Shown here piece after piece: positions 20,696 through 36,690 of a stretch of 64,000 nt of DNA. The DNA comes from Chromobacterium piscinae (GTDB taxonomy: Bacteria; Pseudomonadota; Gammaproteobacteria; Burkholderiales; Chromobacteriaceae), in the NCBI RefSeq assembly GCF_021129175.1, contig NZ_JAJOHV010000025.1, positions 1 to 64,000 on the forward strand, given 5' to 3'. Numbering within the stretch: position 1 is the stretch's first letter; the number at the start of each line of letters is the position of its first letter. The notes under the pieces were generated by a model. It did not search any database and had not been told where the DNA came from. It saw only the letters and a program-made list of their open reading frames with translations. A program made the position numbers and the translations under genes.

Positions 20696-20712
20696 GGTGC
20701 GATTAACGCACC
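20696..20712. promoter_or_regulatory. Operator of the first relay regulator, upstream copy
   Basis: GGTGCGATTAACGCACC, a near-perfect palindrome directly before the ribosome-binding site of the regulator gene. A TATGAT at 20688-20693 could be the -10 box, which would put the palindrome over the transcription start. It matches the operator at the gene's 3' end. Confidence 0.7.
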
Positions 20713-20726
20713 TCTTTAGGAGTGGA

Positions 20727-21014
20727 ATGAAACAGCCCCCGAAATACCCAAAGGGTGATCTTCGCCGCATGCTTATGGTTCTGGCTGCATTGCAGCCAAC
20801 AGAAGGCGCAACGCTGGTGACTATTGCCGAAAAAACAGGACTAGATAAGAAAACTGTTTCTAATCTTTTGGCTCAAGCAAAGGATCAAGCTGGAGTCGAA
20901 TGGGAAAAGATTGGCGCAGTGTATCACCTTCGCAACATCGGGCCAGTATTCAAAATGGAAGGAGTGAAAATGGCCTTGCGCGGTGCGTTAAACGCACCCA
21001 TAATAGAGCCATAG
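20727..21014 (+). CDS. Winged-helix-like relay regulator 1
   Basis: 95 residues, MKQPPKYPKGDLRRMLMVLA start with AGGAG upstream. LVTIAEKTGLDKKTVSNLLAQ looks like a DNA-binding helix-turn-helix. GAVYHLRNIGPVF forms a wing-like strand. It resembles the regulator at 24671 (both have YPKGD-RR, the helix-turn-helix and a VF-LR-G motif near the end). It is flanked by two copies of the same palindrome: one before its start and one overlapping its last codons. Confidence 0.75.
   Translation: MKQPPKYPKGDLRRMLMVLAALQPTEGATLVTIAEKTGLDKKTVSNLLAQAKDQAGVEWEKIGAVYHLRNIGPVFKMEGVKMALRGALNAPIIEP
20976..21004 (+). promoter_or_regulatory. Promoter P1 with operator as spacer
   Basis: TTGCGC (20976-20981), spacer GGTGCGTTAAACGCACC (20982-20998), CATAAT (20999-21004). 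The 17-bp spacer is exactly the palindrome. Bound regulator 1 would occlude the promoter. The promoter lies inside the 3' end of the regulator gene and drives block 1. Confidence 0.75.
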
Positions 21015-21041
21015 TCGAACAACCAAGCCAGGAGTGAAGCC

Positions 21042-21407
21042 ATGGAGCGGTATATCAGGGTGGAAAACGAAGACGGTGAAACTGTTTCAATTCCGGCAAA
21101 AGTCGGTCTTTGTTCCTGCTGCGAAGGGTATGGGAAAGTAGAAAACTCAGCGTTTTCTAATGGCTTTACATCTAGCGAATGGGCTGAGCTGGATGATGAG
21201 TCTAAAGAAAACTACATGGCCGGCGATTACGACGTGCAATGCAAAGCCTGCGAAGGAACAGGACGGGTGTTGGTGCCAAATTTGGAACGCATGACGTTCA
21301 CCCATAAACGCATCTTGGTAAACGTGCGTAGGGAACAACGTGAAGTGGCCGCTGCGGCACGTGCCGTTGACGCAGAGATGGCGGCTGAGCGTGCGTTTGG
21401 CTGTTAA
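21042..21407 (+). CDS. Small zinc-binding protein with two CxxCxGxG-type motifs
   Basis: 121 residues. CSCCEGYGKV (near 25) and CKACEGTGRV (near 66) resemble the paired cysteine motifs of the DnaJ zinc centre. The helical tail is rich in Arg, Ala and Glu. It is the first gene after promoter P1. AGGAG lies upstream. Function unknown. Confidence 0.65.
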   Translation: MERYIRVENEDGETVSIPAKVGLCSCCEGYGKVENSAFSNGFTSSEWAELDDESKENYMAGDYDVQCKACEGTGRVLVPNLERMTFTHKRILVNVRREQREVAAAARAVDAEMAAERAFGC

Positions 21408-21431
21408 TTCGGAAAACTGGAAGACTAGATC

Positions 21432-21782
21432 ATGCCCTATACCCTGACCCGTGCCGACCTCGGCTCTATCACCGACCCCGAGATGGCATTCAGCACTGAA
21501 AGGCTGTTGCCAGCGTGGGAGGACATCCCCGAAACGTTCAAGAACGATCGAGGCAACATCTACGTCGAGTTGGTGAGTGCGTTGTTCTACGGTGGCGAGC
21601 TGCCCAACTGCGACATGGAGTTCCTGCCCGATTTCGACGACGAGCAGGCGTCTGCTGATCTGAATAAGTGCGTGCGCGCCCACCTCCAGTCGTTTGCGCC
21701 GAAGCATGAGCACAAGATGGCAGGTGTTGCATACATGGTGTCATGCGTGTGTACGCTGCACCCTGCGGCGCAACCCGTCTGA
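21432..21782 (+). CDS. Hypothetical acidic protein
   Basis: Not recognised. 116 residues, acidic (NCDMEFLPDFDDEQASADLN), no membrane segment. It is preceded by a CGGAAAA leader. Small acidic proteins are common among DNA-mimic and anti-defence proteins, but nothing specific supports that here. Confidence 0.55.
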   Translation: MPYTLTRADLGSITDPEMAFSTERLLPAWEDIPETFKNDRGNIYVELVSALFYGGELPNCDMEFLPDFDDEQASADLNKCVRAHLQSFAPKHEHKMAGVAYMVSCVCTLHPAAQPV

Positions 21783-21848
21783 GCCACCGGAAAACACTGC
21801 ACCTGTGGGTGCCCGCTCCAGGCCGGCAGCCTGGCAAGGAACCAAACA

Positions 21849-22277
21849 ATGCAAAACGGACTGCAATACAGGACTGACGCGGCCAGTGTGGGCGAAGCTC
21901 TTGCTGCTCTGCAGGAGAAGTTGAAAGGAGTCAAAGCCAGTGATTTGCAGGCAATCAATGACGCCACCTGGCATACCTGCGCGCAGTTCGACGTAAGCCA
22001 AGACGCGCTGGAAAACGCACTGGCGTCGGCTGAAACCGTGTTCGACGCGATGGCGGACGAAAAAATATCTGCGACAAAGCTCGCACGAAAGTACGGCACG
22101 ACCACAGCCGCAGTGCAGTTGGAGCTGGTTCGTTTAGGGTACATCGAAGTTCGTAATGGCCTGCACTTCATCACGCCCCTTGGCCGATCCGAGGGCGGCG
22201 AGTGGCGGCAAAGTCCGGGGGGCACCTGCCAGGACGGACACATGGTCTGGCCTACCAACCTTCAACTGTCGTTTTGA
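21849..22277 (+). CDS. Winged-helix-like protein
   Basis: 142 residues. ISATKLARKYGTTTAAVQLE looks like a helix-turn-helix near residue 75. It is followed by a wing (GYIEVRNGLHFITPLGRSEG) and the tail GEWRQSPGG...DGHMVWP. A degraded relative of the tail lies at 24242-24413. The gene is preceded by a family B hairpin leader (21799-21842), not by a plain CGGAAAA. Confidence 0.55.
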   Translation: MQNGLQYRTDAASVGEALAALQEKLKGVKASDLQAINDATWHTCAQFDVSQDALENALASAETVFDAMADEKISATKLARKYGTTTAAVQLELVRLGYIEVRNGLHFITPLGRSEGGEWRQSPGGTCQDGHMVWPTNLQLSF

Positions 22278-22294
22278 CCATCGGAAAAAACATC

Positions 22295-22579
22295 ATGGCA
22301 TCTGTAATTGAACGAGTCTTCAACGAAACCGGGTCGCAGTGGGCTGATTGCCCCAGCACTTACGAAATTGCCGATGGTATTGCTGGCCGACGCCTGGATC
22401 GGCGTTGCAGCTACGCCATCATCAAAGGCGATGTCTGCGAGCTTGTTCGCTTCTCCATGTCTTGCAGTGGCTGCAATGAGGGTATGGGCGAAAAAGGAGC
22501 CGGCTGCAATGAGTGCGGTTACACCGGTCGATCCCGCGTAAGTCAATGGGTTCCCATGAGTCCGGCAACCCATCAATAA
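22295..22579 (+). CDS. Small cysteine-rich protein
   Basis: 94 residues with a zinc-ribbon-like cluster: MSCSGCNEGMGEKGAGCNEC then GYTGRSR. ATG 22295 follows the CGGAAAA leader at 22282; the longer frame upstream overlaps the previous gene. Function unknown. Confidence 0.55.
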   Translation: MASVIERVFNETGSQWADCPSTYEIADGIAGRRLDRRCSYAIIKGDVCELVRFSMSCSGCNEGMGEKGAGCNECGYTGRSRVSQWVPMSPATHQ

Positions 22580-22597
22580 ATCGGACGGAAAAGAATA

Positions 22598-23512
22598 ATG
22601 AGAGCAGTTGACCTATTTGCCGGCGGCGGGGGATTCAGCACCGGAGCCAAAGCCGCCGGCATCGAAGTGGTATGGGCAGGTAACCACAACCCTGTGGCCG
22701 TTCAGTACCACGCGAATAATCACCCGGAAGCCATCCACGTTTGCCAGGATCTGCATCAAGCAGACTGGACGACTCTACCGGCCCACGATGTGATGTTGGC
22801 GTCGCCCTGTTGCCAGGGGCACACCCCGGCACGCGGAAAGGATCGCCCGTACCACGACAAGCAACGCAGCACAGCGTGGGCGGTGGTGAGCTGCGCCGAA
22901 TATCACCGTCAGGACGTAGTGGTCGTAGAGAACGTCCCTGAATTTACCAAATGGGCGCTCTATCCGGCGTGGTTGCAAGCCATGGATGCACTCGGTTATG
23001 CCGTATCCCCGCACTTAATCGACGCGGCGGATCATGGGGTGCCACAGAATCGCGAGCGGCTGTTTCTGGTCTGCACACAATCGAAACACCCGCTGGAGCT
23101 GAATCTGCCACAGCGCGAGCATGTCGGCATTGGCCAGGTGATCGAGTGGGGCAAGCATCGCTGGTCACCGATCAACAAGCCTGGCCGGAGCGAAGCCACG
23201 CTGAAGCGCGTGGCCGCTGGCCGCGCTCGCCACGGCGATCGATTTGTTGCACCGTACTACGGCAGCGGTAGCGGCACCACTGGGCGCAGCATTGACCGCC
23301 CAATTGGCACCATCACGACGCTGGATCGCTGGGCCGTTATTAATGGCGACCAGATGCGCATGCTGCAACCACCTGAAGTGCGCGCGGCGATGGGATTCCC
23401 TGCCGATTATCAGCTTCCGCCGACCCGACGCGAGGCCATTCACCTGCTGGGCAATGCAGTCTGTCCGCCGGTCGTGACCGACATTCTCAACGAGATCAGG
23501 GCCGCAGCCTAA
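22598..23512 (+). CDS. C5-cytosine DNA methyltransferase
   Basis: 304 residues. Motif I is DLFAGGGGFS (residue 4 on), motif IV SPCCQGH with the catalytic Cys, motif VI ENVPEF, motif VIII QNRERLF, and motif X GNAVCPPVV at the end. The target-recognition region between motifs VIII and IX is short. No cognate restriction enzyme is seen nearby, so it is an orphan enzyme, probably protecting the incoming plasmid from host restriction. It has a CGGAAAA leader and AT-rich Shine-Dalgarno like its neighbours. Confidence 0.9.
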   Translation: MRAVDLFAGGGGFSTGAKAAGIEVVWAGNHNPVAVQYHANNHPEAIHVCQDLHQADWTTLPAHDVMLASPCCQGHTPARGKDRPYHDKQRSTAWAVVSCAEYHRQDVVVVENVPEFTKWALYPAWLQAMDALGYAVSPHLIDAADHGVPQNRERLFLVCTQSKHPLELNLPQREHVGIGQVIEWGKHRWSPINKPGRSEATLKRVAAGRARHGDRFVAPYYGSGSGTTGRSIDRPIGTITTLDRWAVINGDQMRMLQPPEVRAAMGFPADYQLPPTRREAIHLLGNAVCPPVVTDILNEIRAAA

Positions 23513-23530
23513 AACCCCGGAAAAATCAGC

Positions 23531-23875
23531 ATGACTATAACCCTGTCTACCCTCCAATACCTGGCTAAACGACTCGCGTTGATCGACGGCGAGGAGATCG
23601 CAGCAGCCTCTGTGTTGGTGCGCAAGGCGGAAGCCTCGTTGAGTGTTTTCGAGCGGAGTTCTCAAGCCGCACACGCCCTCTATCACACGCTTTGGGACCA
23701 TGTCTCTCGTGCGCTGGATCACAGCGATTTCTCGCCCGAGCATGCTGATGCTGTAGAGGCGTTGGAGGCCGAGTTGGCCGGGCGAACCTTGTTCATCCGG
23801 CTTGCGCTGGGATGGATCTCGCGTAGCGAATCCGGGCCGGCGGAATTCCCGGCTCTTACAGAATTCATGAACTGA
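23531..23875 (+). CDS. Hypothetical helical protein
   Basis: Not recognised. 114 residues, mostly helical, with no Cys and no membrane segment. The ATG lies 7 bp after the CGGAAAA leader at 23518. It follows the methyltransferase directly and may be co-expressed with it. Confidence 0.5.
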   Translation: MTITLSTLQYLAKRLALIDGEEIAAASVLVRKAEASLSVFERSSQAAHALYHTLWDHVSRALDHSDFSPEHADAVEALEAELAGRTLFIRLALGWISRSESGPAEFPALTEFMN

Positions 23876-23905
23876 CGGTAGGTCGGAAAAAGTTTGGAGA
23901 GGAAA

Positions 23906-24202
23906 ATGCAAGACCGTAAAAGAAAATTTAGCGTTCAGCCTGTGCCTGTCGAGCAGAAAATGAGTGACCTGCCCGCAGGTCAGCAAGCTGAAGTCCAGTC
24001 TTGGCTAACACTTCTGGTTGGCCAGTCTAATGAGCCGAAGTCTGTTATGGATGACATGACGCAGGTCGAGTGCGAAGCATTCAATCAATGGGTGTCCGAG
24101 CAGACTGGAGACCCCGAACATGGCGGGGCAATTGATTGCATGAAATGGCCCGGTTGGGGGGCTGTTGTTGTGCGTCGTGCCAAAGAACGCGTTGCCAAAT
24201 AG
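23906..24202 (+). CDS. Hypothetical protein
   Basis: Not recognised. 98 residues. MQDRKRKFSVQPVPVEQKM start with GAGAGGA upstream, so ATG 23906 is preferred over the TTG at 23894. The tail is basic (VVVRRAKERVAK). A CGGAAAA leader lies at 23884. Confidence 0.5.
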   Translation: MQDRKRKFSVQPVPVEQKMSDLPAGQQAEVQSWLTLLVGQSNEPKSVMDDMTQVECEAFNQWVSEQTGDPEHGGAIDCMKWPGWGAVVVRRAKERVAK

Positions 24203-24241
24203 CCATCGGATAAGACCATGACAACTAGGAATTGGCGCATG

Positions 24242-24413
24242 ACTGAAGAAAAATTGGGAGCGAGGTGGATTACATTTCTTCACCGATTTGGGCAAAAGTC
24301 TCGGTGGAGAATGGCGGAAGGTATCAGATCCAAACAACGGCTATGACGGGCATATGGTTTGGCCTGCTGATCTTCTGCTGGGAACACAGCCGTCAGCCGA
24401 GAAGGGAGCTGTA
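24242..24413 (+). pseudogene. Remnant of a winged-helix gene tail
   Basis: An open frame without a proper start reads GLHFFTDLGKSLGGEW, then RKVSDPNNGYDGHMVWP. It matches GLHFITPLGRSEGGEW and DGHMVWP at the end of the gene at 21849. It runs in frame into the next small gene. Only the 3' part of a paralogue is left. Confidence 0.6.
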
Positions 24414-24566
24414 ATGCAATTCAATAAGCACAACGCGGAAGCGCTCGAAACTCTCAGGAAGGCCCGGCCTTTTGGTGTGAAACCCACGCTGTTTGGCTTT
24501 GACCAGAAAACGCTCGTAGCGGCGGCATTGGCGGTCCTGATCGCAGTGCTGCTGCTGGCGCACTGA
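24414..24566 (+). CDS. Small single-pass membrane protein
   Basis: 50 residues, MQFNKHNAEALETLRKARPF start, with one C-terminal hydrophobic segment (TLVAAALAVLIAVLLLAH). GGGAGC lies 7 bp before the ATG. The frame is open upstream into the paralogue remnant, so a longer fused product is possible. Confidence 0.5.
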   Translation: MQFNKHNAEALETLRKARPFGVKPTLFGFDQKTLVAAALAVLIAVLLLAH

Positions 24567-24588
24567 CCACCTGGGAAAAGCTTTGTCC

Positions 24589-24663
24589 ATGCCGGCGACC
24601 GGGCCGGCATCCGCAAGACCTTTCACCAGGCCGTCCGTCGTGGACGGCCCATTTTGCACTAGG
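24589..24663 (+). repeat. Leader family C: double-hairpin leader (type copy)
   Basis: Hairpin I is ATGCCGGC, loop, GCCGGCAT (24589-24610). TTTCACCAGG links it to hairpin II, GGCCGTCC, loop, GGACGGCC (24629-24649), then TTTTGCACTAGGAGG and the start of regulator 2. Related copies lie at 34100-34170 and 36348-36418, both before a ribbon-helix-helix regulator gene with the same TTCACCAGGC link and GCAC(C/T)AGGAG end. Hairpin I alone recurs at 25207-25225, 25714-25731 and 30235 on, and degenerate near 33243. Arms differ in sequence but keep pairing (GCCAGC/GCTGGC at 36348), which is evidence that an RNA structure is conserved. Confidence 0.7.
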
Positions 24664-24670
24664 AGGCAGG

Positions 24671-24952
24671 ATGCAGCAGTTCCCGTGCAACGAACACGGT
24701 GTACCTCAATATCCGAAAGGCGATGCCCGGCGCTTGTTTGTGCTGCTGGCCGCCATCGACAAGCTGCCCAGGCCGACGCTGACCACGTTGTCAGCCTTTA
24801 CTGGCCACAACAAAGGCACTATCGACGCGGACGTGGCGAAATTGGCCGAGCAATACGGGGTAGAAATTGGGCGCGACGGTCCTGTATTTGTGCTGCGGTC
24901 GTGGGGTGATGTGTTGAAGCAACAAGGGGTAAGAAAGAGCTTGAAAGGTTAG
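24671..24952 (+). CDS. Winged-helix-like relay regulator 2
   Basis: 93 residues. YPKGDARRLFVLLAAIDK, then the helix-turn-helix LTTLSAFTGHNKGTIDADVA and the strand DGPVFVLRSWGDV. It is related to regulator 1. AGGAGG lies just before the ATG at the end of a family C leader. It is the last gene of block 1. Its last codons overlap promoter P2. A 3' fragment of the same gene, with the promoter, is copied at 29909. Confidence 0.72.
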   Translation: MQQFPCNEHGVPQYPKGDARRLFVLLAAIDKLPRPTLTTLSAFTGHNKGTIDADVAKLAEQYGVEIGRDGPVFVLRSWGDVLKQQGVRKSLKG

Positions 24953-24969
24953 ATAAACTAACCTAAGAT
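24941..24969 (+). promoter_or_regulatory. Promoter P2 with operator as spacer
   Basis: TTGAAA (24941-24946), spacer GGTTAGATAAACTAACC (24947-24963), TAAGAT (24964-24969). The spacer is again exactly 17 bp and palindromic (arms GGTTAG/CTAACC). It overlaps the end of the regulator 2 gene and drives block 2. Confidence 0.75.
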
Positions 24970-24987
24970 TGAGCCATCAACAACGTG

Positions 24988-25188
24988 ATGGACAAGCTCA
25001 TGAGACTCTATGTAGAAGGTCACGCTGCCCGCTATGGTTATGCAATTTCGAAGACTTGGAGCGACCACGAATGCAGTACGCTCCCTCCTGCGACCGACGA
25101 GGAGTTAAAGCCTGTGCGCTGGGTGACATGCAGAAGAAAGGCTTTTGCCCTGGTTGAACGATGGAACCGGCGATTTGCAACGCACTAG
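24988..25188 (+). CDS. Small basic protein, duplicated (copy 1)
   Basis: 66 residues, MDKLMRLYVEGHAARYGYAI start, Trp- and Arg-rich at the end (RRKAFALVERWNRRF). It is the first gene after promoter P2. It is nearly identical to the gene at 30011 after P3. The high protein identity of the two copies suggests a recent duplication. No known domain. Confidence 0.6.
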   Translation: MDKLMRLYVEGHAARYGYAISKTWSDHECSTLPPATDEELKPVRWVTCRRKAFALVERWNRRFATH

Positions 25189-25265
25189 TTAATAGTCGTT
25201 TTGTCTATGCCGCTTATGGCGGCATCAGCAAAATGATTTACAGACCAAAACTCGGGAAACACCAT

Positions 25266-25682
25266 ATGAACCACACCGGTAATGCCGCCTACGAACTTGG
25301 CTATAGACAGGCGATCAAGGATGCTGCGGCCAAGTTGGCCCTCGGGAATGGAAGCCCCAGTAAAGCAGCTCTAAAGGTGCTTGAAATGCTGCCAGACCAC
25401 GGCATGGAGTCTGATGGCATCTCAGCCGAACATCTGAGGACCTGGCTGGTTACTCATCTCATCGACGACATCCACAATTCCCGTTGGTACCGAACAGCCC
25501 CGGCAGCAGAAGCCAAGAACATGACGATCGAGCTTTTGGGCATCGAGAAGCGCACCTTCCACAGCATGCTGGGAGGTAGCAGCGAGCGTGAGTGCCTTGT
25601 GATCGAGTGCGAAATTGCGGGTGACAGGCAGCAGTACATCACACTGCTTGACCAACTCATTGCTCAGCAGTCTGAACTCTGA
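25266..25682 (+). CDS. Hypothetical protein
   Basis: Not recognised. 138 residues, MNHTGNAAYELGYRQAIKDA start. Helical, acidic toward the end. An upstream TTG/ATG start near 25161 would overlap the previous gene and hairpin, so ATG 25266 is preferred. It is preceded by a family C hairpin at 25207-25225. Confidence 0.55.
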   Translation: MNHTGNAAYELGYRQAIKDAAAKLALGNGSPSKAALKVLEMLPDHGMESDGISAEHLRTWLVTHLIDDIHNSRWYRTAPAAEAKNMTIELLGIEKRTFHSMLGGSSERECLVIECEIAGDRQQYITLLDQLIAQQSEL

Positions 25683-25814
25683 TTGCTGACAAACGGAAAA
25701 GTCTGCTGGCCGCTGCCGGCGCTCGCCGGCAACCACGAGCAGACTTTCGCAAGCACAAACGTTGCGGCCTGATGGTCGCCCGCCTCCGGCCGGAAGCCGG
25801 GATCTGGACTGAAA

Positions 25815-26243
25815 ATGAAACAGCTTACCCTCAAGGAATTTGTCAGCGAGGCATCGCCGGATGATTGCCGCATCTTTCATGTCGGCCATGGTCAGTGGGA
25901 AGTGCGCTGCCAGGCGGGCGTTCTTGTTCAACCCAATGGCAAGACTCGATTCAATGACCTGACCTACCTTCTCTCAGTCTTGGCCAGCGTAGGTATCCGC
26001 TGCACCGTTATTGAGTGGGATGGATTGCCTGCTGCTGGGCAGCAGGAAGCCGCGAACACGGCAGATGTGCCGCCATCTTGGGCGTGGCTACGCGATCACC
26101 TTGCGATCTGGCTATCAGCAGTTTGTAGCCGTCAGCAGGGCGAGAAGGACGCTGACTTTTGGGAGGGCGAGTTGGATCGAAGTGCTGCTGGGCCAAAAAT
26201 TCACCCTGTCGCGCAAATCCGCACCATGACCGCAAAACAATAG
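25815..26243 (+). CDS. Hypothetical protein
   Basis: Not recognised. 142 residues. The first 75 residues look like a compact alpha/beta domain (DDCRIFHVGHGQWEVRCQAG, LTYLLSVLASVGIRCTVIEW). It follows a leader made of CGGAAAA (25694), a family C hairpin (25714-25731) and a family B element (25761-25806), the longest leader in the region. Confidence 0.55.
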   Translation: MKQLTLKEFVSEASPDDCRIFHVGHGQWEVRCQAGVLVQPNGKTRFNDLTYLLSVLASVGIRCTVIEWDGLPAAGQQEAANTADVPPSWAWLRDHLAIWLSAVCSRQQGEKDADFWEGELDRSAAGPKIHPVAQIRTMTAKQ

Positions 26244-26258
26244 CGCTCGGAAAATACC

Positions 26259-26453
26259 ATGCCGAAAAAGCCGCTTGCCGACCGAGTTCTTGACGCCGAA
26301 GTGCGGGCCTCGCAGTGGCGGGCCGATGCCAACCAGGCCCGCGAGTGCGGGGACGAAAAGCGCGCGGCCGAGTGCGATGCGAAGTCACAATTCTGGCTGG
26401 ATCGATACAACCATCTGTCGGGCCGGGGCGAGCGCCCAGCACCGCAGAAATAA
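26259..26453 (+). CDS. Small helical protein
   Basis: Not recognised. 64 residues, very rich in Ala, Arg, Asp and Glu (ADRVLDAEVRASQWRADANQ), probably two helices. The ATG follows CGGAAAA by 4 bp. Confidence 0.5.
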   Translation: MPKKPLADRVLDAEVRASQWRADANQARECGDEKRAAECDAKSQFWLDRYNHLSGRGERPAPQK

Positions 26454-26466
26454 CCAGGAGCAGAGC

Positions 26467-26706
26467 ATGCGCCGCAAACCAACTGCCACGGCTGTATCGC
26501 AGGACAACCAAGCAACCGTTTGGCGGGTGCAGTGGCCCAGTTCTGGCATTCGCGGGGGCAAGACCTACTACGCCACGACCTATGCTGGCTGCGATGAGCT
26601 GCTGATCTAGACCGGTGCAAAGCGCCAAGTCGCGGCAGAGGGCGTTGCGAAGAAACTGGAGCCGACTATTCGTCAGGCAATTGCAACGGCCAAGGCATCG
26701 GCCTAA
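26467..26706 (+). pseudogene. Small gene with an in-frame amber stop
   Basis: MRRKPTATAVSQDNQATVWR reads 47 codons to TAG at 26608-26610. It then continues in the same frame for 31 codons (TGAKRQVAAEGVAKKL...TAKASA) to TAA at 26704-26706. The simplest reading is a CAG-to-TAG change in an 80-codon gene. The 47-residue product may still be made, or the stop may be read through. GGAGCAG lies before the ATG. Confidence 0.6.
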
Positions 26707-26723
26707 CCCCGTCACGGAAAATA

Positions 26724-26770
26724 TTGCGCCCAGGAAGGGCGCCCGACGCCGGCCGGCCGCCGGGACTGGA
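26724..26770 (+). repeat. Leader family B: G/C-rich hairpin leader (type copy)
   Basis: GCGCCC, loop, GGGCGCC, then GACGCCGGCCGGCCGCCGGG, then a short A-rich link to the ATG. Related copies begin near 21799, 25761, 27997, 29371, 31082, 33304 (degenerate) and 35932, each ending just before a gene start; broken copies lie near 30352 and 35356. The shared core is GCCCGCnnCCGGCCGGnAGCC. Most follow a CGGAAAA. Confidence 0.7.
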
Positions 26771-26778
26771 GCAATATC

Positions 26779-26973
26779 ATGCATCACGACGCACTGAAGA
26801 TGGACCGGATCATCAGCGGCCACGGCATCGCCAAGACGAATTCGGATGATGCCGACTGGCTCCGCGCGGTCCAAGAAGAACTGGCGCAGCTCCGGAAAGA
26901 AGTTAATGCCTGGCGCGAGCGTTTCCCCGACATCAAATATCGCCCGCAGGATGACTGCGTAGCACCCAAGTAA
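26779..26973 (+). CDS. Small coiled-coil protein
   Basis: Not recognised. 64 residues. WLRAVQEELAQLRKEVNAWR is a clear short coiled coil. It follows a family B leader with ACTGGAG as a ribosome-binding site. Confidence 0.5.
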   Translation: MHHDALKMDRIISGHGIAKTNSDDADWLRAVQEELAQLRKEVNAWRERFPDIKYRPQDDCVAPK

Positions 26974-26990
26974 ACGCCACGGAAACGACC

Positions 26991-27257: not shown

Positions 27258-27337
27258 TTCGGAAAATGGACTGGCTATGGCAGCGTTAACAACGCTCGGT
27301 TTCCTTGGACAAGCTCACTAGATAGAGAAAGGCAGTC

Positions 27338-30382: not shown

Positions 30383-30631
30383 ATGAGAACTACTATCACT
30401 GCTGTTTTACTTCTGGTTGTGGGTGCGGCTGCTGTAGCTGGGAGCCAAGCCGACGCCGACTTCCTTCAAGAGAAAGTTAACGGCTGGTTTGCTGAGGCTA
30501 AGCCTGCGGCTAAAGGCGTTTGGCTGACAGATGCAAAAGGTTGCTTGGTATCAGCCTTTGATGATGGCACTGGTATTAAGCTCGTGAAGATGCTGGATGC
30601 TCGTAGCAAGCAGCCGATCTGCCGCAAGTAA
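30383..30631 (+). CDS. Small secreted protein
   Basis: 82 residues with a Sec signal (ITAVLLLVVGAAAVAGS) and two Cys (GCLVS, PICRK) that could pair. The 110 bp upstream hold a B-like GCCC/GGGC hairpin near 30353 but no gene. Function unknown. Confidence 0.55.
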   Translation: MRTTITAVLLLVVGAAAVAGSQADADFLQEKVNGWFAEAKPAAKGVWLTDAKGCLVSAFDDGTGIKLVKMLDARSKQPICRK

Positions 30632-30645
30632 AACCGGAAAAAATC

Positions 30646-31020
30646 ATGTTGAGTGGACCGGAAGCCCATTTCAAATTGCGTAAGCCTTGCGACAACTGCC
30701 CTTTTCTAAAAGAGGGTGGTATCAGGCTGGAGCCAGGCCGCCTGAAGGGCATCATCGATGACCTTGTAAAGAATGATCATGCGCCTTTTCAGTGCCACAA
30801 GACAGTCCATAACTGCCGGACTGGTGGCTCCTGGGATGATGATGGCAAATATAGTGCTAGTGGTCATGAGGCCTGGTGTGCCGGCGCAATGATTTATCTG
30901 GAGAAGCTGGGCCGCCCAAATGTGGGGATGAGGTTAGGACGAATGTTCGGTCTGTATGATCCTGACTGCTTGCAGTCCAGCTTTGACGATGTGATTGACC
31001 CAACCGAACGGCGCGACTGA
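30646..31020 (+). CDS. Conserved cysteine/histidine protein
   Basis: 124 residues. Cys and His residues are spread in a pattern that suggests metal binding: CDNCPFLKEGGIRL, then FQCHKTVHNC, EAWCAGA, and YDPDCLQSS. It resembles a phage- and plasmid-borne family of unknown function. CGGAAAA lies 5 bp before the ATG. Confidence 0.6.
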   Translation: MLSGPEAHFKLRKPCDNCPFLKEGGIRLEPGRLKGIIDDLVKNDHAPFQCHKTVHNCRTGGSWDDDGKYSASGHEAWCAGAMIYLEKLGRPNVGMRLGRMFGLYDPDCLQSSFDDVIDPTERRD

Positions 31021-31130
31021 CGCCACGGAAAATACGATTGACGATAAATCGTCTTGGGCTACACAGCGCCTAATTTCATCGCGTCCAGGTGACGCCCGCG
31101 CCGGCCGGTAGCCGAAAGTGGATATAACTA

Positions 31131-31421
31131 ATGACCCCCCATTTTATTGAAGTCACTATCAGTTCCGACTCCAACGATCCTCTTGCAGCCCCACGCAAAG
31201 GAATAATTCGCCATGATCAGATCACATCTATTGTGGACATTTCCAGTGGTGAATATGTGAATCACACTTTAACTCAGATCACTTTGGTAGAAGAGTATGA
31301 CTACCAAAATGATGCTGATGATATTGGTGGGGTTATTCGTGGTCGCCGCACACTTTGCGTTCAGGAAGATTACGAGACAGTAAAGACTAGGTTAGTCAAT
31401 GCTTGCCAGGCAGCCTGCTGA
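31131..31421 (+). CDS. Hypothetical beta-rich protein
   Basis: Not recognised. 96 residues: FIEVTISSDSND start, then alternating hydrophobic strands (IIRHDQITSIVDI). Acidic. It follows a family B leader at 31082-31120. Confidence 0.5.
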   Translation: MTPHFIEVTISSDSNDPLAAPRKGIIRHDQITSIVDISSGEYVNHTLTQITLVEEYDYQNDADDIGGVIRGRRTLCVQEDYETVKTRLVNACQAAC

Positions 31422-31438
31422 TCTGATCGGAAAAGCTC

Positions 31439-31915
31439 ATGCCAAGCCCGGAACACGACAATCTGACCCGCCTCGGCGCGAGGTGGCTCAAGAAGCAAGG
31501 CTTCGCTGTGGTGGCCACCGAGATAAGCGCCGTTGGAAGCCGTGAGCAACCCGATGTAGTAGGTTTTCGCTCAACCTGCTCAGCAATCATCGAGGCCAAG
31601 ACAAGCCGGGCTGATTTTCTGGCGGATGCGAAGAAGCCGGAACGCAAAGCAGATGGCGCGGGACTCGGGATTTACAGGTTCTATATCTGTCCGCATGGTC
31701 TGATCGCGGTCGATGAATTGCCGGCGAAGTGGGGCCTCCTCTATGTCCGGGGAGCAGCGGTAGAGGACGTTCGCCGCCCCCTGGGGAATATCTGGCCGGG
31801 TCTTGGGCAGTCGGTCGAAGGCTGGAACGAATTTCAACATGAGCCGGATTTGGCCAAGGAAAGAGCCGTCTTGTTTTCGATAGCAAGACGCTTAGCCAAC
31901 GGCCAGCCGGTTTGA
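31439..31915 (+). CDS. PD-(D/E)xK nuclease-like protein, short form
   Basis: 158 residues. EQPDVVGFRSTCSAIIEAKT gives the PD and ExK strands, followed by SRADFLADAKKPERK. The C-terminal part has IYRFYICPHGLIAVDELPAK. It is a divergent relative of the protein at 13921 and lacks its coiled-coil tail. CGGAAAA lies 5 bp before the ATG. Confidence 0.65.
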   Translation: MPSPEHDNLTRLGARWLKKQGFAVVATEISAVGSREQPDVVGFRSTCSAIIEAKTSRADFLADAKKPERKADGAGLGIYRFYICPHGLIAVDELPAKWGLLYVRGAAVEDVRRPLGNIWPGLGQSVEGWNEFQHEPDLAKERAVLFSIARRLANGQPV

Positions 31916-31966
31916 CTCGGAAAATACACGCCGGCCGAAGGGTGACGTGAGAGAGGAAACGAAAAC

Positions 31967-32725
31967 ATGACGCAAAATATTTCGACCCGGCGAGCATTCG
32001 CTGGCATCTATGTCGACGGGCCTCAAATCAGCGTCAGCGTGAACCCGCTTGCCAACGGTCAATTGAGCGTCACGGTGACGGCTCACCCTGACCTGACCGG
32101 GTTCTCGCAGTCTTGTCGTTTGACAAACCTTGAGGCTGTTCACGAGTTTTCTCTGAGCGACATCACGCTCGCGGGTGAAACTCTTCTGTGCATGGCTCCC
32201 TACGAAAGCGCCCCGATCTATCGAGAGGGCTTTACCATCCAGCTCGATTCCGGAATGGCCCAGGCTCTCCAGCCTTTGCTGCCAAAGCTGGCCAACGTTG
32301 CGAGAACGGCCGAATCGATCGAGGGGCGCGTTGCTTCGTTAATGGCACCAGACCACATCAGTCATATGGAATCGTTCATCACCCAGGTTGTTGCGAGGGT
32401 CATTCTCGATAAGTATTCACCCAAAGATGCGATTACAGCCGAAGCGATAGAACACTTCGCTGGCAAGAACGCAAAGTTTCTGGAGGCGTTCAATGATGAC
32501 CAGGTGCAAGTCCATCTAGCTAACGCTCAACATGTGGCAACTCTTGAAAGTTTGCCCAGTGGTATCAGTGTGCAGTTAGCCGCAGAACAAGAGCATTCCA
32601 AGCGGCTGGCTGATGCGCTGAGGGCCATGCTCGAATGGCACGACGACATAGCCAAGCCGGCGAGCCAACCACTGCTTAATGCTGGCTATGAGGCCCTGGA
32701 CGTCTACGATATATCGCATCGCTAA
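31967..32725 (+). CDS. Hypothetical protein
   Basis: Not recognised. 252 residues, the longest gene of block 3. The first 80 residues are beta-rich (QISVSVNPLANGQLSVTVTA). The rest is helical, with a possible coiled coil near the end (LAAEQEHSKRLADALRAMLE). AGAGAGGA lies upstream. Confidence 0.55.
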   Translation: MTQNISTRRAFAGIYVDGPQISVSVNPLANGQLSVTVTAHPDLTGFSQSCRLTNLEAVHEFSLSDITLAGETLLCMAPYESAPIYREGFTIQLDSGMAQALQPLLPKLANVARTAESIEGRVASLMAPDHISHMESFITQVVARVILDKYSPKDAITAEAIEHFAGKNAKFLEAFNDDQVQVHLANAQHVATLESLPSGISVQLAAEQEHSKRLADALRAMLEWHDDIAKPASQPLLNAGYEALDVYDISHR

Positions 32726-32744
32726 CTGGCACGGGAAAATGATC

Positions 32745-32972
32745 ATGAAGCCACTTCAGGCAGGTGAACTTAGCAAGCTGGTCAGCATCGGAGTGATCCG
32801 CATGGTAGCGCTGAAAGAAACGCCGGACGGTTGGACGATACAGTTTAACGATGGCGCATATGCCTCTGCACTTGATGATGGTAGAGCACGGTTTTTTGCA
32901 AGTACCGACAGCGCGTTGAAATTCCTCAAAGGGCGAGGGATTTTCAATGTATCGGTTCACATGACAAAGTGA
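32745..32972 (+). CDS. Small plasmid stability-like protein
   Basis: 75 residues. ALKETPDGWTIQFNDG and FFASTDSALKFLKGRGIFNV resemble the N-terminal half of the stability determinant at 18612 (GGWSVVVKYG, LFKKLETLVAYLAGVG). No toxin gene follows, so it is probably an orphan DNA-binding or antitoxin-like protein. ATG 32739 is an alternative start. Confidence 0.55.
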   Translation: MKPLQAGELSKLVSIGVIRMVALKETPDGWTIQFNDGAYASALDDGRARFFASTDSALKFLKGRGIFNVSVHMTK

Positions 32973-33047
32973 CTGAAATGAAGGAGTTTCAATTTGTCGA
33001 TTTCAATCCACAGCGTGGGTGATGAGACTTCGGGCGGAAAATACTAT

Positions 33048-33221
33048 ATGACTGAGGGTGAATGGAAGGCAGCATTTATTACTGCCATGGAAGCTCATGG
33101 AGGCTCTGCATTCAACATGGCAGAAGAGGAAGCTGACTACCAGTGGATGAACGCTCCAAACGTAGAGGAGATTGATCCTATTGCGTTGGCAAATAAAATC
33201 GCACCGGCATACCTCCGTTAA
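33048..33221 (+). CDS. Small acidic protein
   Basis: 57 residues from MTEGEWKAAFITAMEAHGGS. The CGGAAAA at 33035 ends 6 bp before this ATG, the same layout as its neighbours, so this start is preferred. A TTG at 32994 with AAGGAG upstream would add 18 residues. Function unknown. Confidence 0.5.
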   Translation: MTEGEWKAAFITAMEAHGGSAFNMAEEEADYQWMNAPNVEEIDPIALANKIAPAYLR

Positions 33222-33350
33222 GCCATCAGAGAAGCCTCCTGGCTGCTGCAGGACGAGTCCCGGCAACCACAAGCAGACTCAACCGCGTTCCGTATGCGAA
33301 ACATTGCGGCTAGTTGGCCCCCGTACCGGTCTGTAGTCGGAGGAAGTGAA

Positions 33351-33743
33351 ATGGAGTTTGCTATGAGACGAGAGAAGAATCGCGGATCGTACGCAGAGCG
33401 CGTTGAGCTGTCTGCTATAGGAAGTGCATCCGCTTATGCAGTTGCACTCGTCATAGTTTTTTGGTTGATATATTATTCCCATCAAGAACTTGACAAAAGC
33501 ATTCAGGACTACAGAATTAAAAGGATTTCATCTGTAGAATCAGTAATTGACATGAAGGATAGTAAGCAACGATTTATATCTTACGCTTTTAATTCCTGCT
33601 TAGATAGAAAAGGAACAAGTGTTTTAGAGTGCAAGAATGACACGCTAAATTTAGCTACATATGCTTTCGGTAAAGATTATAAAATGACAGCAAATTTCCT
33701 TCTTGAGAGAATGTTTAGTAATCTAACTATAACAAATGACTGA
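33351..33743 (+). CDS. AT-rich single-pass membrane protein
   Basis: 130 residues with one membrane segment (YAVALVIVFWLIYYS) and a Lys/Ser-rich domain with two Cys. Base composition is clearly more AT-rich than the neighbours, a sign of a different origin. A degenerate family B leader and GGAGGAAG lie upstream. Confidence 0.55.
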   Translation: MEFAMRREKNRGSYAERVELSAIGSASAYAVALVIVFWLIYYSHQELDKSIQDYRIKRISSVESVIDMKDSKQRFISYAFNSCLDRKGTSVLECKNDTLNLATYAFGKDYKMTANFLLERMFSNLTITND

Positions 33744-33886
33744 AATCAAAATAAGAAGCCGCATAGAAGTAAAAATCATAGTCGACAACGAAATGGATAT
33801 AACACTATCCGCCCAACCGGTATTAGGCCACAGCTAAGCCTTATTGATTGATCACCAAAAATATTTTTCAACGAAAGGAGATGTGA

Positions 33887-34081
33887 GTGGATAACCACTG
33901 GAATGAAGCAGCCAATTCTCTGGCTAAGGCCGTGCTCACGAAGGTTTCCCATATGGAGCATGGAGAACTGCACAATCTGCTGCCTGAACTATTTGAACAA
34001 GGTGGCGCACTTGCAAACGCTGGCGACAATGAGCTATGTGCTCTACAAGCGCTGATCGCTCAAGGCCAAGTCGGCTTCTAG
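33887..34081 (+). CDS. Small helical protein
   Basis: Not recognised. 64 residues, GTG start with AAAGGAG upstream. Acidic and helical. The 143 bp before it are AT-rich and hold nothing clear. Confidence 0.5.
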   Translation: MDNHWNEAANSLAKAVLTKVSHMEHGELHNLLPELFEQGGALANAGDNELCALQALIAQGQVGF

Positions 34082-34174
34082 GTACTGGTCGTTTTCCCCA
34101 TGCCGGCACGCCGGCATTAGAGAATTCGATTCACCAGGCTGCCGACGCGGCCTATGTTGCACCAGGAGCACGGG

Positions 34175-34426
34175 TTGGACGAGAAGAAGAGAGGCCGGGG
34201 ACGCCCGGCAGGCTTGACCCAGGAGGCACGCAAAGAGCAGCTTCGTCTGGGTAAAGCTGCACAGAGAGAGCGCGAGACAGAGGCCGGAAGGACACGAATC
34301 GATGCGGCTGTATCCGTCGAAGCGAAAGCCAATCTGGAAGCCTATCGAGATGCGAATGGATTTAAGAGTCTTGGTGTTGCATTGGATGCAATTCTACTTA
34401 AAATTTATGTTGACCGGTCAACATAA
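34175..34426 (+). CDS. Ribbon-helix-helix-like relay regulator 3a
   Basis: 83 residues, TTG start with CCAGGAG upstream at the end of a family C leader. Basic N-terminus (DEKKRGRGRPAGLTQEARKE) as in AT-hook or RHH proteins, then VSVEAKANLEAYRDANGFKS, then a short helix ending VDRST. The codons for VDRST are the operator. It is about 93% identical in DNA to the gene at 36427. Confidence 0.7.
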   Translation: MDEKKRGRGRPAGLTQEARKEQLRLGKAAQRERETEAGRTRIDAAVSVEAKANLEAYRDANGFKSLGVALDAILLKIYVDRST

Positions 34427-34438
34427 TTATCCTAGAAT
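34409..34438 (+). promoter_or_regulatory. Promoter P4 with operator over the -35 box
   Basis: Operator GTTGACCGGTCAAC (34409-34422) contains the -35 box TTGACC (34410-34415). A 17-bp spacer separates it from TAGAAT (34433-34438). A very good sigma70-like promoter, occluded when the operator is bound. It lies in the end of the regulator gene and drives block 4. Confidence 0.8.
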
Positions 34439-34460
34439 TAAACCATCAAAACCAGACTTG

Positions 34461-34817
34461 ATGAAGCCTGTTATGAAGACCGTAGATATCTTGTTTGGCG
34501 TGGATTTGAGCGCCTACGTTTCCACCGAAGTGCAAATTCCGGCTGACGTCGATCTGAAAACCTGGCTACTGGAGTACGGCCCGTCAATCGTCGAGGATCT
34601 GGTATTTGATGAGAACTGGGGTACGCAAGACGCCTTGCGTGTTGTGGAGGTTAAGCACAGCGGGAACACTGTGCTGTCAGATCTTCCCTTGGCTCCCAGC
34701 CCATATGATCGGGGCTTGCTGGCAGAGACCTTCATCAAGAAGCATTGGGACGAGCTGGTGACTTTGAGTATCCCGCAGAATATTCTGGCCGATTTTCAGA
34801 CGGTGCTTAATACCTGA
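34461..34817 (+). CDS. Hypothetical acidic protein
   Basis: Not recognised. 118 residues from MKPVMKTVDILFGVDLSAYV. Acidic, mixed fold. It is the first gene after P4; transcription would start about 15 bp before the ATG. ATG 34473 is an alternative start. Confidence 0.55.
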   Translation: MKPVMKTVDILFGVDLSAYVSTEVQIPADVDLKTWLLEYGPSIVEDLVFDENWGTQDALRVVEVKHSGNTVLSDLPLAPSPYDRGLLAETFIKKHWDELVTLSIPQNILADFQTVLNT

Positions 34818-34838
34818 TATCTTTCCCGGCCAGCTGCT

Positions 34839-35063
34839 GTGAGTCGACTACTCATCAAAATGGGGAGGGTCCAACGAGTCTCCCTGGTAAAGGATAGACT
34901 GGTAATCCCTGCGGATGGGCTGGAGCAATCGTGCCGACTCGACATCGCAAAGACATCGGCAAGGCTGGGCTACACCGGACACGTTGTATTCGCCGCGCCG
35001 CAGTATGGCGTGCATGACCGGTTCTGTATCGAGGACGTGCTGTCGCACAGCCGGCCTAACTAA
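34839..35063 (+). CDS. Hypothetical protein
   Basis: Not recognised. 74 residues, GTG start. Beta-rich, basic (LLIKMGRVQRVSLVKDRLVI). It follows the previous gene by 21 bp. Confidence 0.45.
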   Translation: MSRLLIKMGRVQRVSLVKDRLVIPADGLEQSCRLDIAKTSARLGYTGHVVFAAPQYGVHDRFCIEDVLSHSRPN

Positions 35064-35076
35064 CTCGGAAATTGCC

Positions 35077-35349
35077 ATGAAAAAATATCAGATGGCCGCC
35101 CGCCTGCTACTTGCCTTGGCTATGCCCTGGCTGATTGTGATTGGCTTCAATCTTGGTTGTCGCCTTGTGTCTTTCTCGACGGGCTCACCACTCCCTCCCT
35201 GGCGGTTGTACGCCGACACTACCTGGCTTGTAACCAGATATTTGGCAATGTACTGTGCAGCCTCTTTGATGCTGGCTTACGTTTCAAGTTGGTTTCGGCC
35301 CAACGCTGAACTGAGTGCTTCGGACAATAACCAGACCATAAAGTCGTAA
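35077..35349 (+). CDS. Small two-segment membrane protein
   Basis: 90 residues with membrane segments at about 8-28 (LLLALAMPWLIVIGFNLGC) and 52-70 (LAMYCAASLMLAYVSSWF). The ATG follows the variant leader CGGAAAT (35066). Confidence 0.5.
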   Translation: MKKYQMAARLLLALAMPWLIVIGFNLGCRLVSFSTGSPLPPWRLYADTTWLVTRYLAMYCAASLMLAYVSSWFRPNAELSASDNNQTIKS

Positions 35350-35390
35350 CGGGAAGTTATCGCGGCCATGTGGCCTGGGAGAAACAAAGG

Positions 35391-35575
35391 CGGCAAGCAT
35401 CACCATCAAAATTGAAGACCGCGCTGACGGGGGTATGAACGTTCAGTTTCAGGCGGACAATCTGAAAACAGCGGCAACAAAGCAAACATGGCTTTTTGGG
35501 TTTGCTTGCGCCGATAGGAATGCCACATTACGGAAAATGTTTTTATCTAAGGGTATGAGGAATCAGTATGTCTAA
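35391..35575 (+). pseudogene. Small gene that has lost its start codon
   Basis: An open frame reads AASITIKIEDRADGGMNVQF and on to MRNQYV and a stop at 35573-35575. A normal-looking ribosome-binding stretch (TGGGAGAAACA) is followed by AAG where an ATG would be expected. ATG 35436 could give a 46-residue product. A broken family B element precedes it. Confidence 0.4.
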
Positions 35576-35891
35576 TGACGTAGTTCTAGAAACACTGACC
35601 GAGAAAATTCAGCGGCAAGATCGCTACATCGTGGAGTTGCAAGCTAAACTTCTACAGGCGCGGCAAGCCGCGGTTGGCAACATGCTCGGGCAGCTTCGCT
35701 TGCGAGAGGCAGTATTGCTGTATGTTGGGCAGAATGCTGACAACTTCGAGCGGGAGATTGCAGAGAACTTCGGTAGAGAAGTGGCGCAGGAGGTGTCAGT
35801 CAGCCTGTTCGTGCTCGACAACGCACCTGTTTCGCCCGAAGTACGTGAGACGTTCCGTAAAGCGACCAACCACGGAATGAACCGATGGTAA
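35568..35891 (+). CDS. Hypothetical helical protein
   Basis: 107 residues, helical, starting with a coiled coil (EKIQRQDRYIVELQAKLLQA). A CGGAAAA lies at 35531 and GAGGAATC before the ATG. Overlaps the end of the previous frame by 8 bp. Function unknown. Confidence 0.55.
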   Translation: MSNDVVLETLTEKIQRQDRYIVELQAKLLQARQAAVGNMLGQLRLREAVLLYVGQNADNFEREIAENFGREVAQEVSVSLFVLDNAPVSPEVRETFRKATNHGMNRW

Positions 35892-35990
35892 GTGACATTC
35901 GCGGCGCAACCTTACCAAGTTTCGCGAAACATCGCGGCCAGGTGCCGCCCGTTGCCGGCCGGCCGCCGGAAATGTCTTTATGGAATAGAT

Positions 35991-36323
35991 ATGCGAGTCG
36001 AAATTAAACCTAATACTTGGCTAAATATTTCTGCCGTTGCTTTAGCGGAGAAGCAGGTTTTAACCGGAACTTGGGGGGATGATGCAAAGGATTACAAGAG
36101 AATACAAGGAGAGCCATTTCATATTGTGCAGCTTCGATTGATTGTTCCTGGGCTTGAACCAATTTGGCTGGAATGGGAGGCAGAGTTGGAGAATGGCAAA
36201 GTTACCGAAGAAGGCATCGCCGCAGTTGAAAAAAAATGTCAAACAATAATTAACCTGCTACCCCCTTTGGGGGCCTGCGTAACAGGTGCATCTAAACTCC
36301 ACGCCCAGGTTGAATCTGTCTAA
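35991..36323 (+). CDS. Hypothetical protein
   Basis: Not recognised. 110 residues from MRVEIKPNTWLNISAVALAE. Beta-rich at first, then helical. It follows a family B leader (35932-35972). AT-rich compared with the leader. Confidence 0.5.
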   Translation: MRVEIKPNTWLNISAVALAEKQVLTGTWGDDAKDYKRIQGEPFHIVQLRLIVPGLEPIWLEWEAELENGKVTEEGIAAVEKKCQTIINLLPPLGACVTGASKLHAQVESV

Positions 36324-36426
36324 CTCTCTGAAACGTTTGTTGATCGCTGCCAGCGTCGCTGGCATCAACGAGCAGATTCACCAGGCCGCCCAGGATAGGG
36401 CGGCTTTGTCGCACTAGGAGCACGGA

Positions 36427-36678
36427 TTGGACGAGAAGAAGAGAGGCCGGGGACGCCCGGCAGGCTTGACCCAGGAGGCACGCAAAGAGCAGCTTCGTCT
36501 GGGTAAAGCTGCGCAGAGAGAGCGAGAGACAGAGGCCGGAAGGGCACGAATCGATGCGGCTGTATCCGTCGAAGCGAAGGCCAATCTTGAAGCCTATCGA
36601 GATGCGAATGGATTCAAGAGTTTGGGTGTGGCGTTAGACGAAATTCTGCTTCAATTAAATGTTGACCGGTCAACATAA
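36427..36678 (+). CDS. Ribbon-helix-helix-like relay regulator 3b
   Basis: 83 residues, TTG start with CTAGGAG upstream. Near-copy of 3a; differences cluster in the last 20 codons (EILLQLN for AILLKIY). The VDRST ending and its operator are kept exactly. Both copies probably bind the same site, so P4 and P5 would be controlled together. Confidence 0.7.
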   Translation: MDEKKRGRGRPAGLTQEARKEQLRLGKAAQRERETEAGRARIDAAVSVEAKANLEAYRDANGFKSLGVALDEILLQLNVDRST

Positions 36679-36690
36679 AGAGGCTAGAAT
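36661..36690 (+). promoter_or_regulatory. Promoter P5 with operator over the -35 box
   Basis: Operator GTTGACCGGTCAAC (36661-36674), -35 TTGACC (36662-36667), 17-bp spacer, TAGAAT (36685-36690). Same boxes and spacing as P4, although the spacer beyond the operator differs. It drives block 5. Confidence 0.8.

Follow-up and report, generated by a model that had tools for sequence, protein, structure and literature searches.

We analyzed the first 64 kb (the window) of C25, a 129,462-bp contig in the draft genome of Chromobacterium piscinae, where four small regulator genes (regA, regB, regC1, and regC2) are interleaved with blocks of small orphan genes (Table 1). Five promoters with sigma-70-type boxes (P1-P5), all with 17-bp spacers, lie at regulator 3' ends: P1 overlaps regA, P2 regB, P4 regC1, and P5 regC2, and P3 overlaps a fragment, the copied last codons of regB. 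An original prediction made from the letters had described this arrangement, and direct reading confirmed it; the positions given for P1-P3 stood, and those for P4 and P5 were 1 bp off and now read 34410 and 36662. Also as predicted, the palindromic operator coincides exactly with the 17-bp spacer in P1-P3 and covers the -35 box in P4 and P5. Operators in the window are of three types, beginning GGTGCG (A) and GGTTAG (B) or reading TGTTGACCGGTCAACA (C). The stop codon of regB falls inside the type-B operator of P2, and the type-C palindrome is perfect over 22 bp at P4 and over 18 bp at P5.

Table 1. Coordinates of the main features in the window
Feature	Coordinates	Strand	Description	Basis
Integrase fragment	20498-20692	+	Tyrosine integrase, C-terminal fragment	PF00589 E 2.7e-9
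P0	20664-20712	+	Weak promoter-like TTCGAT-18-TATGAT (20664-20693), then type-A operator 20696-20712	Sequence
regA	20727-21014	+	Winged-helix-family regulator, type A, recognition motif GLDKK	PF09339 E 2.5e-5; family alignment
P1	20976-21004	+	TTGCGC-GGTGCGTTAAACGCACC-CATAAT; type-A operator 20982-20998, within regA codons	Read directly
Block 1 cargo	21042-24566	+	Small orphan genes; C5-cytosine methyltransferase homologue 22598-23512	PF00145 E 4e-42 (methyltransferase)
Stem-loop pair	24585-24660	+	Immediately 5' of regB	Fold z -3.1
regB	24671-24952	+	Winged-helix regulator, type B, motif GHNKG
P2	24941-24969	+	TTGAAA-GGTTAGATAAACTAACC-TAAGAT; type-B operator 24947-24963	Read directly
Block 2 cargo	24988-29837	+	Small orphan genes
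Copied regB end	29895-29992	+	Frame 29895-29975, carries P3; copied DNA from 29910
P3	29964-29992	+	TTGAAA-GGTTAAATAAACTAACC-TATTAT; type-B operator 29970-29986	Read directly
Block 3 cargo	30011-34081	+	Small orphan genes; 31439-31915 nuclease-like, Hjc	PF01870 25.5 bits, cut-off 21.1 (nuclease)
regC1	34175-34426	+	Type C, possible ribbon-helix-helix regulator
P4	34410-34438	+	TTGACC-17-TAGAAT; type-C palindrome 34405-34426 over -35	Read directly
Block 4 cargo	34461-36323	+	Small orphan genes
regC2	36427-36678	+	Second regC copy, TTG start
P5	36662-36690	+	TTGACC-17-TAGAAT; type-C palindrome 36659-36676	Read directly
Block 5 cargo	36709-39514	+	Small orphan genes
Double-hairpin copies	21790-21843, 25755-25810, 26717-26773, 27989-28040, 29362-29417, 31077-31122, 33297-33341, 35925-35979	+	Eight copies of a 55-nt element

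The -35 and -10 boxes alone prove nothing, because a bare sigma-70 scan of 20400-40000 sits at chance (17 found, 15.2 expected). We therefore relied on no such scan, and counted promoters whose 17-bp spacer is palindromic in at least seven of eight pairs: the window has two (P1 and P2), whereas 100 resamples under a first-order Markov model of the window, with both strands counted, give an expectation of 0.01 per 64 kb. P3 (six of eight pairs) and P4 and P5 (other design) fall outside this test. A further type-A operator (GGTGCGATTAACGCACC), missed by the original prediction, lies upstream of regA. Because it stands just after a -10-like TATGAT, regA looks autoregulated, and we propose this site, P0, as the place of that autoregulation.

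RegA and RegB are related (41% identity) and form one winged-helix family. The structure model of RegB is a winged helix (three helices and a two-strand wing) with a last helix of residues 84-91; these residues end the predicted fold, and the promoter sits at that place. A PDB sequence search with RegA and RegB returned weak matches only, the best being a MarR-family protein (0.0012). RegC gave chance-level names in the same kind of search and no match in Pfam, and its structure model (predicted local distance difference test 75, no strand), for which the alignment had two rows, does not suffice to assign a fold; RegC may be a ribbon-helix-helix protein. No similarity between RegC and RegA or RegB was noticed, with no formal comparison made.

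Two duplications, both missed by the original prediction, account for the repeated promoters. P2 and P3 lie in copies 94.7% identical (24887-25244 and 29910-30267), the P3 unit comprising the copied regB end, its promoter, and the first small gene. Duplication of the entire regC unit (34101-34447 and 36348-36699, 86.4%) gave rise to P4 and P5. Between the two regC copies there are 11 synonymous and five non-synonymous codon differences, none of them in the five final codons, which lie over the -35 box and the operator.

Recurrence of the layout and matching of operators to regulators

Because a megablast of the region against plasmids gave no match, we used protein searches. A tblastn search of plasmids found 41 records with RegB and 35 with RegA (overlapping sets), from which 18 RegA/B-family records were taken for their difference, many of the remainder being near-identical P. 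aeruginosa plasmids; a genome contig search added 24 loci. Analysis covered 45 genes: the two in the window, seven plasmid loci (L008-L014), the 24 genome-contig loci, and 12 further plasmid loci. We required, near the gene end, a promoter with at least 7 of 12 consensus bases and a 17-bp spacer palindromic in at least six of eight pairs, including five of the outer six. This strict test was passed by 24 of the 45 genes, with a chance rate of 0.004 per gene estimated from the fetched loci, true sites included. In 23 of the 24, the operator start falls in phase on the codon that aligns with codon 93 of RegB. Stop codons follow 5 to 308 nt past the operator start; the type-A operator codes for Gly-Ala-Leu-Asn-Ala-Pro, and type-B GGTTAG codes for Gly-stop. 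The promoters of the passing genes match 8 to 11 of 12 consensus bases. A C at position 6 after the -10 box (25 of 30 promoters) and an A at position 7 (19 of 30) fit a start-site-like context; these positions were not used in picking promoters. Promoter position is kept among proteins down to ∼40% identity with RegB. Thus the layout of regulator plus embedded promoter, for which a search in other plasmids had been suggested, does recur, and the comparison supports conservation of the 3'-end promoter in about half of the RegA/B-family members examined. RegB was found in none of 100 other genomes nearest the host, and neither RegA nor RegB in viral contigs. Upstream of the integrase-regulator unit, loci L008, L043, and L044 carry SOS-response peptidase and H-NS family genes, joined in L043 and L044 by imuA and DNA polymerase Y family genes.

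The original prediction also held that each operator type is matched with its own regulator. This is supported by the 24 passing genes, in which four recognition-helix motifs correspond to four operator types with no exceptions. Motif G[LI]DKK goes with arms GGTGCN/NGCACC (type A), GHNKG with GGTTAG/CTAACC (type B; one base changed in L023), GLSKG with GTTCCN/NGGAAC or GTTCTA/CAGAAC (type D), and GHHKQ with GGTCAG/CTGACC (type E). None of the outer five operator pairs is broken in 23 of these 24 genes (the sixth often is in type A), so both arms change together between types, as one would expect of a dimer. A same-type operator also stands 5' of the regulator in 22 of the 45 genes (nine type A, seven type D, and six type E, assigned by eye), and in none of five type-B genes.

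A type-blind search for the pattern in 20 plasmid records (5.03 Mb) yielded 21 sites in 14 records, and the reversed pattern yielded none. Twenty of the 21 sites fit the regulator type of their own plasmid, nine of them away from the regulator; three of the searched records hold RegC and gave no sites. (This and the relaxase search below covered 20 or 18 of the 21 related plasmid records, that of L060 being left out.) The odd site, at pPME5 74729, has no RegA/B-family regulator adjoining and is probably due to chance. In a Stenotrophomonas plasmid, one remote matching site precedes an unannotated 604-amino-acid open reading frame (ORF) with a GSGKT motif. Could the overlap of features be a coincidence kept by common descent, with no regulation? 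The family members are homologous, so position could be inherited, and operator similarity follows the whole protein as well as it follows the recognition helix. We find this hardly credible, given that position is kept down to ∼40% identity to RegB while both arms differ between types, and that matching sites occur elsewhere in the same plasmids.

Near-consensus promoters, 17-bp spacing, and palindromes where polymerase would be blocked make matched repression the simplest reading, and the comparative pattern supports it well. Spacer-centred palindromes are also known for MerR-type activators, and small winged-helix proteins can activate or repress, which lends something to the view that the regulators are activators or dual, twisting the DNA or recruiting polymerase when bound between or over the promoter boxes. 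We regard this as improbable: with 17-bp spacers and 8 to 11 of 12 consensus bases the promoters should need no help, the type-C palindrome covers the -35 box, and the same-type 5' operators, several of them right after a -10-like box (by eye), occupy the classical position of a repressor site. A repressor bound at the 3' end of its own gene (upstream of the stop codon in types A and D) could in addition act as a roadblock on its own mRNA; such feedback would suit type B, because no 5' operator was seen in that type.

Exchange of units, cargo, and a hairpin element

Plasmids yielded three relatives of RegC, and each has TTGACC-17-TAnnnT where the gene ends, together with a palindrome that has decayed. 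Among 274 genomes of the class (its own included), RegC had one weak outside match (E 9.8e-4), and it had none in phages. The integrase fragment next to regA is 42% identical over 64 amino acids to an integrase beside a Halomonas regulator, and is of the kind found directly upstream of the regulator in several related plasmids. The integrase upstream of a RegB-type gene in a B. ubonensis plasmid is 56%-58% identical to those upstream of RegC genes, and the leader following the promoter matches between L008 and L042 (47 nt, 89%). Since Burkholderia plasmids hold a winged-helix (RegB) unit in one case and RegC units in others within like integrase and leader flanks, whole regulator-promoter units look exchangeable.

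Pfam was searched with 28 window proteins, 23 of them cargo (some small ORFs fell outside the scan). Only the C5-cytosine methyltransferase and the Hjc-like nuclease exceeded the cut-off among the cargo; no anti-defence or Ard family was found among these 23 proteins, with no PADLOC scan made, and below-cut-off names, the only ones for four of 20 cargo proteins, were ignored. Two otherwise different ORFs of block 1 (21849-22277 and 24288-24566) have a common C-terminal motif, GGEWR...DGHMVWP, and 28444-28613 in block 2 is 63% identical to 38601-38772 in block 5, so that these blocks share a repeat that has diverged. An AAA/zeta-toxin-like protein (PF06414 E 1e-6; PF13671 E 4e-8) is encoded at 39573-40706, where the region ends on the right.

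We also noted a 55-nt double-hairpin element, whose eight copies are all on the plus strand, all within this region, and all overlapping a start codon or at most 12 nt from one. A model of the element found one further copy in the same genome (E 2e-6) and copies in four of 60 other genomes of the host family. Its stems covary over 17 copies (nine cells changed on both sides, against 2.0 in shuffles; the alignment was model-fitted). Rfam gave nothing at gathering threshold in the window, and nothing at E up to 1 in 20400-37000, this element included. It is perhaps a translational control leader.

Together with the integrase, the hairpins bring to mind an integron-like capture platform, in which the upstream integrase inserts small-gene cassettes downstream of a regulated promoter and the hairpins are recombination sites. 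Integrons are marked by an IntI-type integrase with attI and attC sites; the integrase seen in the window is a fragment. An annotated integrase lies directly upstream of the regulator in eight of 21 records and ∼0.9 kb upstream in a ninth (homology was tested for seven of the eight, the ninth, and the window fragment), the likely cargo ORFs are mostly on one strand (by eye), and the eight hairpin copies lie between genes. We give this explanation very little credence, as the element stands directly before start codons, more like a translational leader, and no copy was found at E<1 in 19 related loci, several of which have their own small-gene arrays.

Wiring, timing, and transfer setting

We think it likely that the region consists of self-contained control cassettes stacked on a conjugative plasmid, and do not read it as a tuned timer. 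In each cassette, the last codons of a small repressor gene would form a sigma-70 promoter and a palindromic operator bound by the same repressor, placing the downstream genes under its control. P0 (the promoter of regA itself) and P1 would be targets of RegA; P1 would express RegB, the presumed repressor of P2 and P3; and P3 and P4 would express RegC1 and RegC2, respectively, both of which would shut P4 and P5. A dimer of RegA or RegB is predicted to cover the -35/-10 spacer, and RegC the -35 box. In a plasmid-holding cell the promoters would be held low, and in a repressor-free new host they would fire until repressor accumulates. From features evident in the sequence (the layout, the fixed codon in RegA/B relatives, type matching, remote operators, and unlike units within like flanks), we infer binding, repression, and this transient burst, which would be expected for any repressor-controlled plasmid promoter.

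The original prediction saw here a relay, each block ending with the repressor of the next, that serves as a zygotic-induction timer: cassettes tuned to fire on entry and to close in sequence. As wiring the relay is correct in this plasmid, the two duplications included. Repressor-free entry would indeed derepress all five promoters, the cargo holds a DNA methyltransferase homologue, and two known systems, the establishment regulon under Reg in p576 and the CUP regulon of IncN plasmids, are close analogues. We consider a tuned timer unlikely, in part because of a toy model (nine settings, no delays). P1-P5 start open in the model and fall below half activity almost together, within 0.01-0.21 dilution times, with P4 and P5 first or tied; a repressor chain alone is thus not a timer that closes in order, and the claim that the promoters are shut off in order is not supported. 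When the regA promoter was made less sensitive, P2 and P3 reopened in two of four settings. With that promoter 10 times less sensitive, P1 was shut, RegB fell, and P2 and P3 reopened (0.86 and 0.95 of full); with RegB binding ten times tighter they were held at 0.07. Among the relatives sampled (limited flanks), one regulator usually goes with one or more same-type promoters, and a mixed-regulator chain was seen only here. The relay is best read as cassette stacking plus duplication.

The setting also lends no support to the idea that these are early-entry genes. C25 carries trb-type transfer genes, a pilus-like operon with type II/IV secretion ATPase and secretin genes, a relaxase domain (103141-103536, minus strand), and, upstream of the latter at 104209, a nic-like CATCCTGT, which we take to resemble the RP4 nic; presumably the strand reading rightwards from it enters first. 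An overlap test of the contig ends found none, so closure is only presumed. If the contig closes, the region would enter ∼46 kb behind the putative oriT, counting 25 kb up to the end of the contig and a further 20.7 kb; intervening contigs would lengthen this distance. Eight of 20 related plasmid records have a relaxase match (PF03432 in two of 20; PF07514 in six of 18, some weak; PF08751 in none of 18), with regulator-relaxase distances of about 7, 21, 36, 36, 74, 112, 135, and 202 kb. In seven of these eight relatives the regulator thus lies 21-202 kb from the relaxase, and the eighth, at 7 kb, has no embedded promoter, as is also true of the 202-kb case. We saw no feature that would mark the region as a leading one. 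The lack of Ard-like families in the scanned cargo speaks against a timer as well. Beyond the window, at C25 106453, 106735, and 113694 (2-10 kb from the nic-like site), palindromes TGTTGAATATTCAACA and TGTTGACTATTCAACA occur in promoter-like settings; their outer arms resemble the type-C operator, and they perhaps form a separate regulon near oriT.

Several observations weigh against the cassette interpretation. Twenty-one of the 45 RegA/B-family genes fail the strict test: three come close to passing at the gene end (L011, degenerate; L036, 16-bp spacer; L049, 18-bp spacer), L018 has a palindrome without a promoter, L019 has a promoter beyond the stop codon, and 16 have none at the gene end (L034 among them, cut by a contig end). 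In L023, the remaining passing gene, the operator is out of phase. RegC relatives in plasmids are few (three, two of them nearly identical); in two of the three the stop codon precedes the promoter, and the coding overlap is unconserved. Over nine cluster representatives, operator similarity has a correlation of 0.72 with the recognition helix and of 0.74 with the remainder of the protein, so we rejected the helix as the better operator predictor, and co-inheritance and co-evolution are inseparable here. Stem-loop pairs like that before regB precede regC1 (34100-34172) and regC2 (36340-36420), each of the three pairs being followed by GCAC(T/C)AGGAG, and a stem also lies 5' of the RegC gene in locus L042; a terminator scan (30 vs. 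21.8 expected) did not call those before regB, regC1, and regC2, which may weaken coupling from the upstream block. Finally, location gives no support for early entry.

Known plasmid regulons and significance

The system works like the IncN CUP/ArdK and p576 Reg regulons and is a member of neither. In the IncN plasmids pKM101/R46, a small helix-turn-helix repressor, ArdK (ArdR), acts on several conserved upstream promoter (CUP) elements; ArdK of IncN (also of R388) represses its own promoter too, and separate genes are controlled (PMC6289460, PMC9723621). The likeness lies in a small plasmid repressor with several promoter elements, here P2/P3 and P4/P5 repeated before gene blocks. Membership fails because regulator family and operator form differ: ArdK is of the KorA family and uses direct repeats by the -35 box, whereas the operators here, matched with two unrelated regulator families, are inverted repeats placed within the spacer or across the -35 box. 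An hhalign comparison of an eight-row RegA/B profile with R46 ArdK gave E 0.012 and a probability of 3.6% (0.2% with ArdR), and the gene next to the Stenotrophomonas regulator, annotated "ArdR", lacks similarity to R46 ArdR. The use of a repressor's last codons as promoter and operator is absent from the passages considered of the two CUP/ArdK papers. The CUP/ArdK regulon sits in the leading region beside oriT and controls anti-restriction genes; here the nic-like site would lie ∼46 kb before the region in the presumed direction of transfer if the contig closes, and the 23 Pfam-scanned cargo proteins include no Ard family.

In Reg(p576)/EGeRS2, an autoregulated plasmid ribbon-helix-helix protein represses strong promoters of variable establishment operons, with a transient burst after transfer in clade II of the pLS20 family (PMC8708921). 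Strong promoters before several variable gene operons and a plasmid repressor would be common to both systems. Reg(p576), from Bacillus plasmids, has one regulator and a dual TTATCCC operator outside the -35 box, whereas three types with other operators occur here; membership fails because the operator sequence differs, and reg as the carrier of the next promoter is absent from the passages considered of that paper. The phage anti-CRISPR autorepressor aca, encoded later in its operon, shuts off its own promoter (PMC8708921). RegC2 similarly ends the P4 block, and P4 carries a type-C operator at which repression is predicted; unlike in aca, the 3' end of the repressor gene doubles as a promoter, and RegA, RegB, and RegC1 would have the next block as their target. 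In RP4 zygotic induction and in anti-defence leading regions with Frpo promoters, genes are released on entry (PMC7314908, PMC11541004); unlike these, our region does not appear to lie beside the putative oriT, and the promoters proposed are ordinary double-stranded sigma-70 promoters. A literature search of open papers found none that describes the embedded operator-promoter layout in its title or the first lines of its abstract.

Since other Pseudomonas and Burkholderia plasmids show the layout again, it may represent a kind of control cassette that can be exchanged and has gone unrecognised. More tentatively, and with somewhat less than even confidence, we suggest that this is a widespread, unnamed class in which the tail codons of a repressor form its own promoter and operator, with non-homologous versions that swap and stack orthogonally. 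Most regulators of the RegA, RegB, and RegC types are annotated as "hypothetical protein" in plasmid tables, and the genes that they presumably control are orphans of small size. Should an embedded operator-promoter in a short repressor gene prove to mark where a regulated block begins, regulons on Pseudomonas and Burkholderia plasmids could easily be located and bounded; the orphans could then be grouped by regulator type, and their action on entry could be asked. The type-matched operators would, if the reading is true, form a natural set of orthogonal repressor-promoter pairs.

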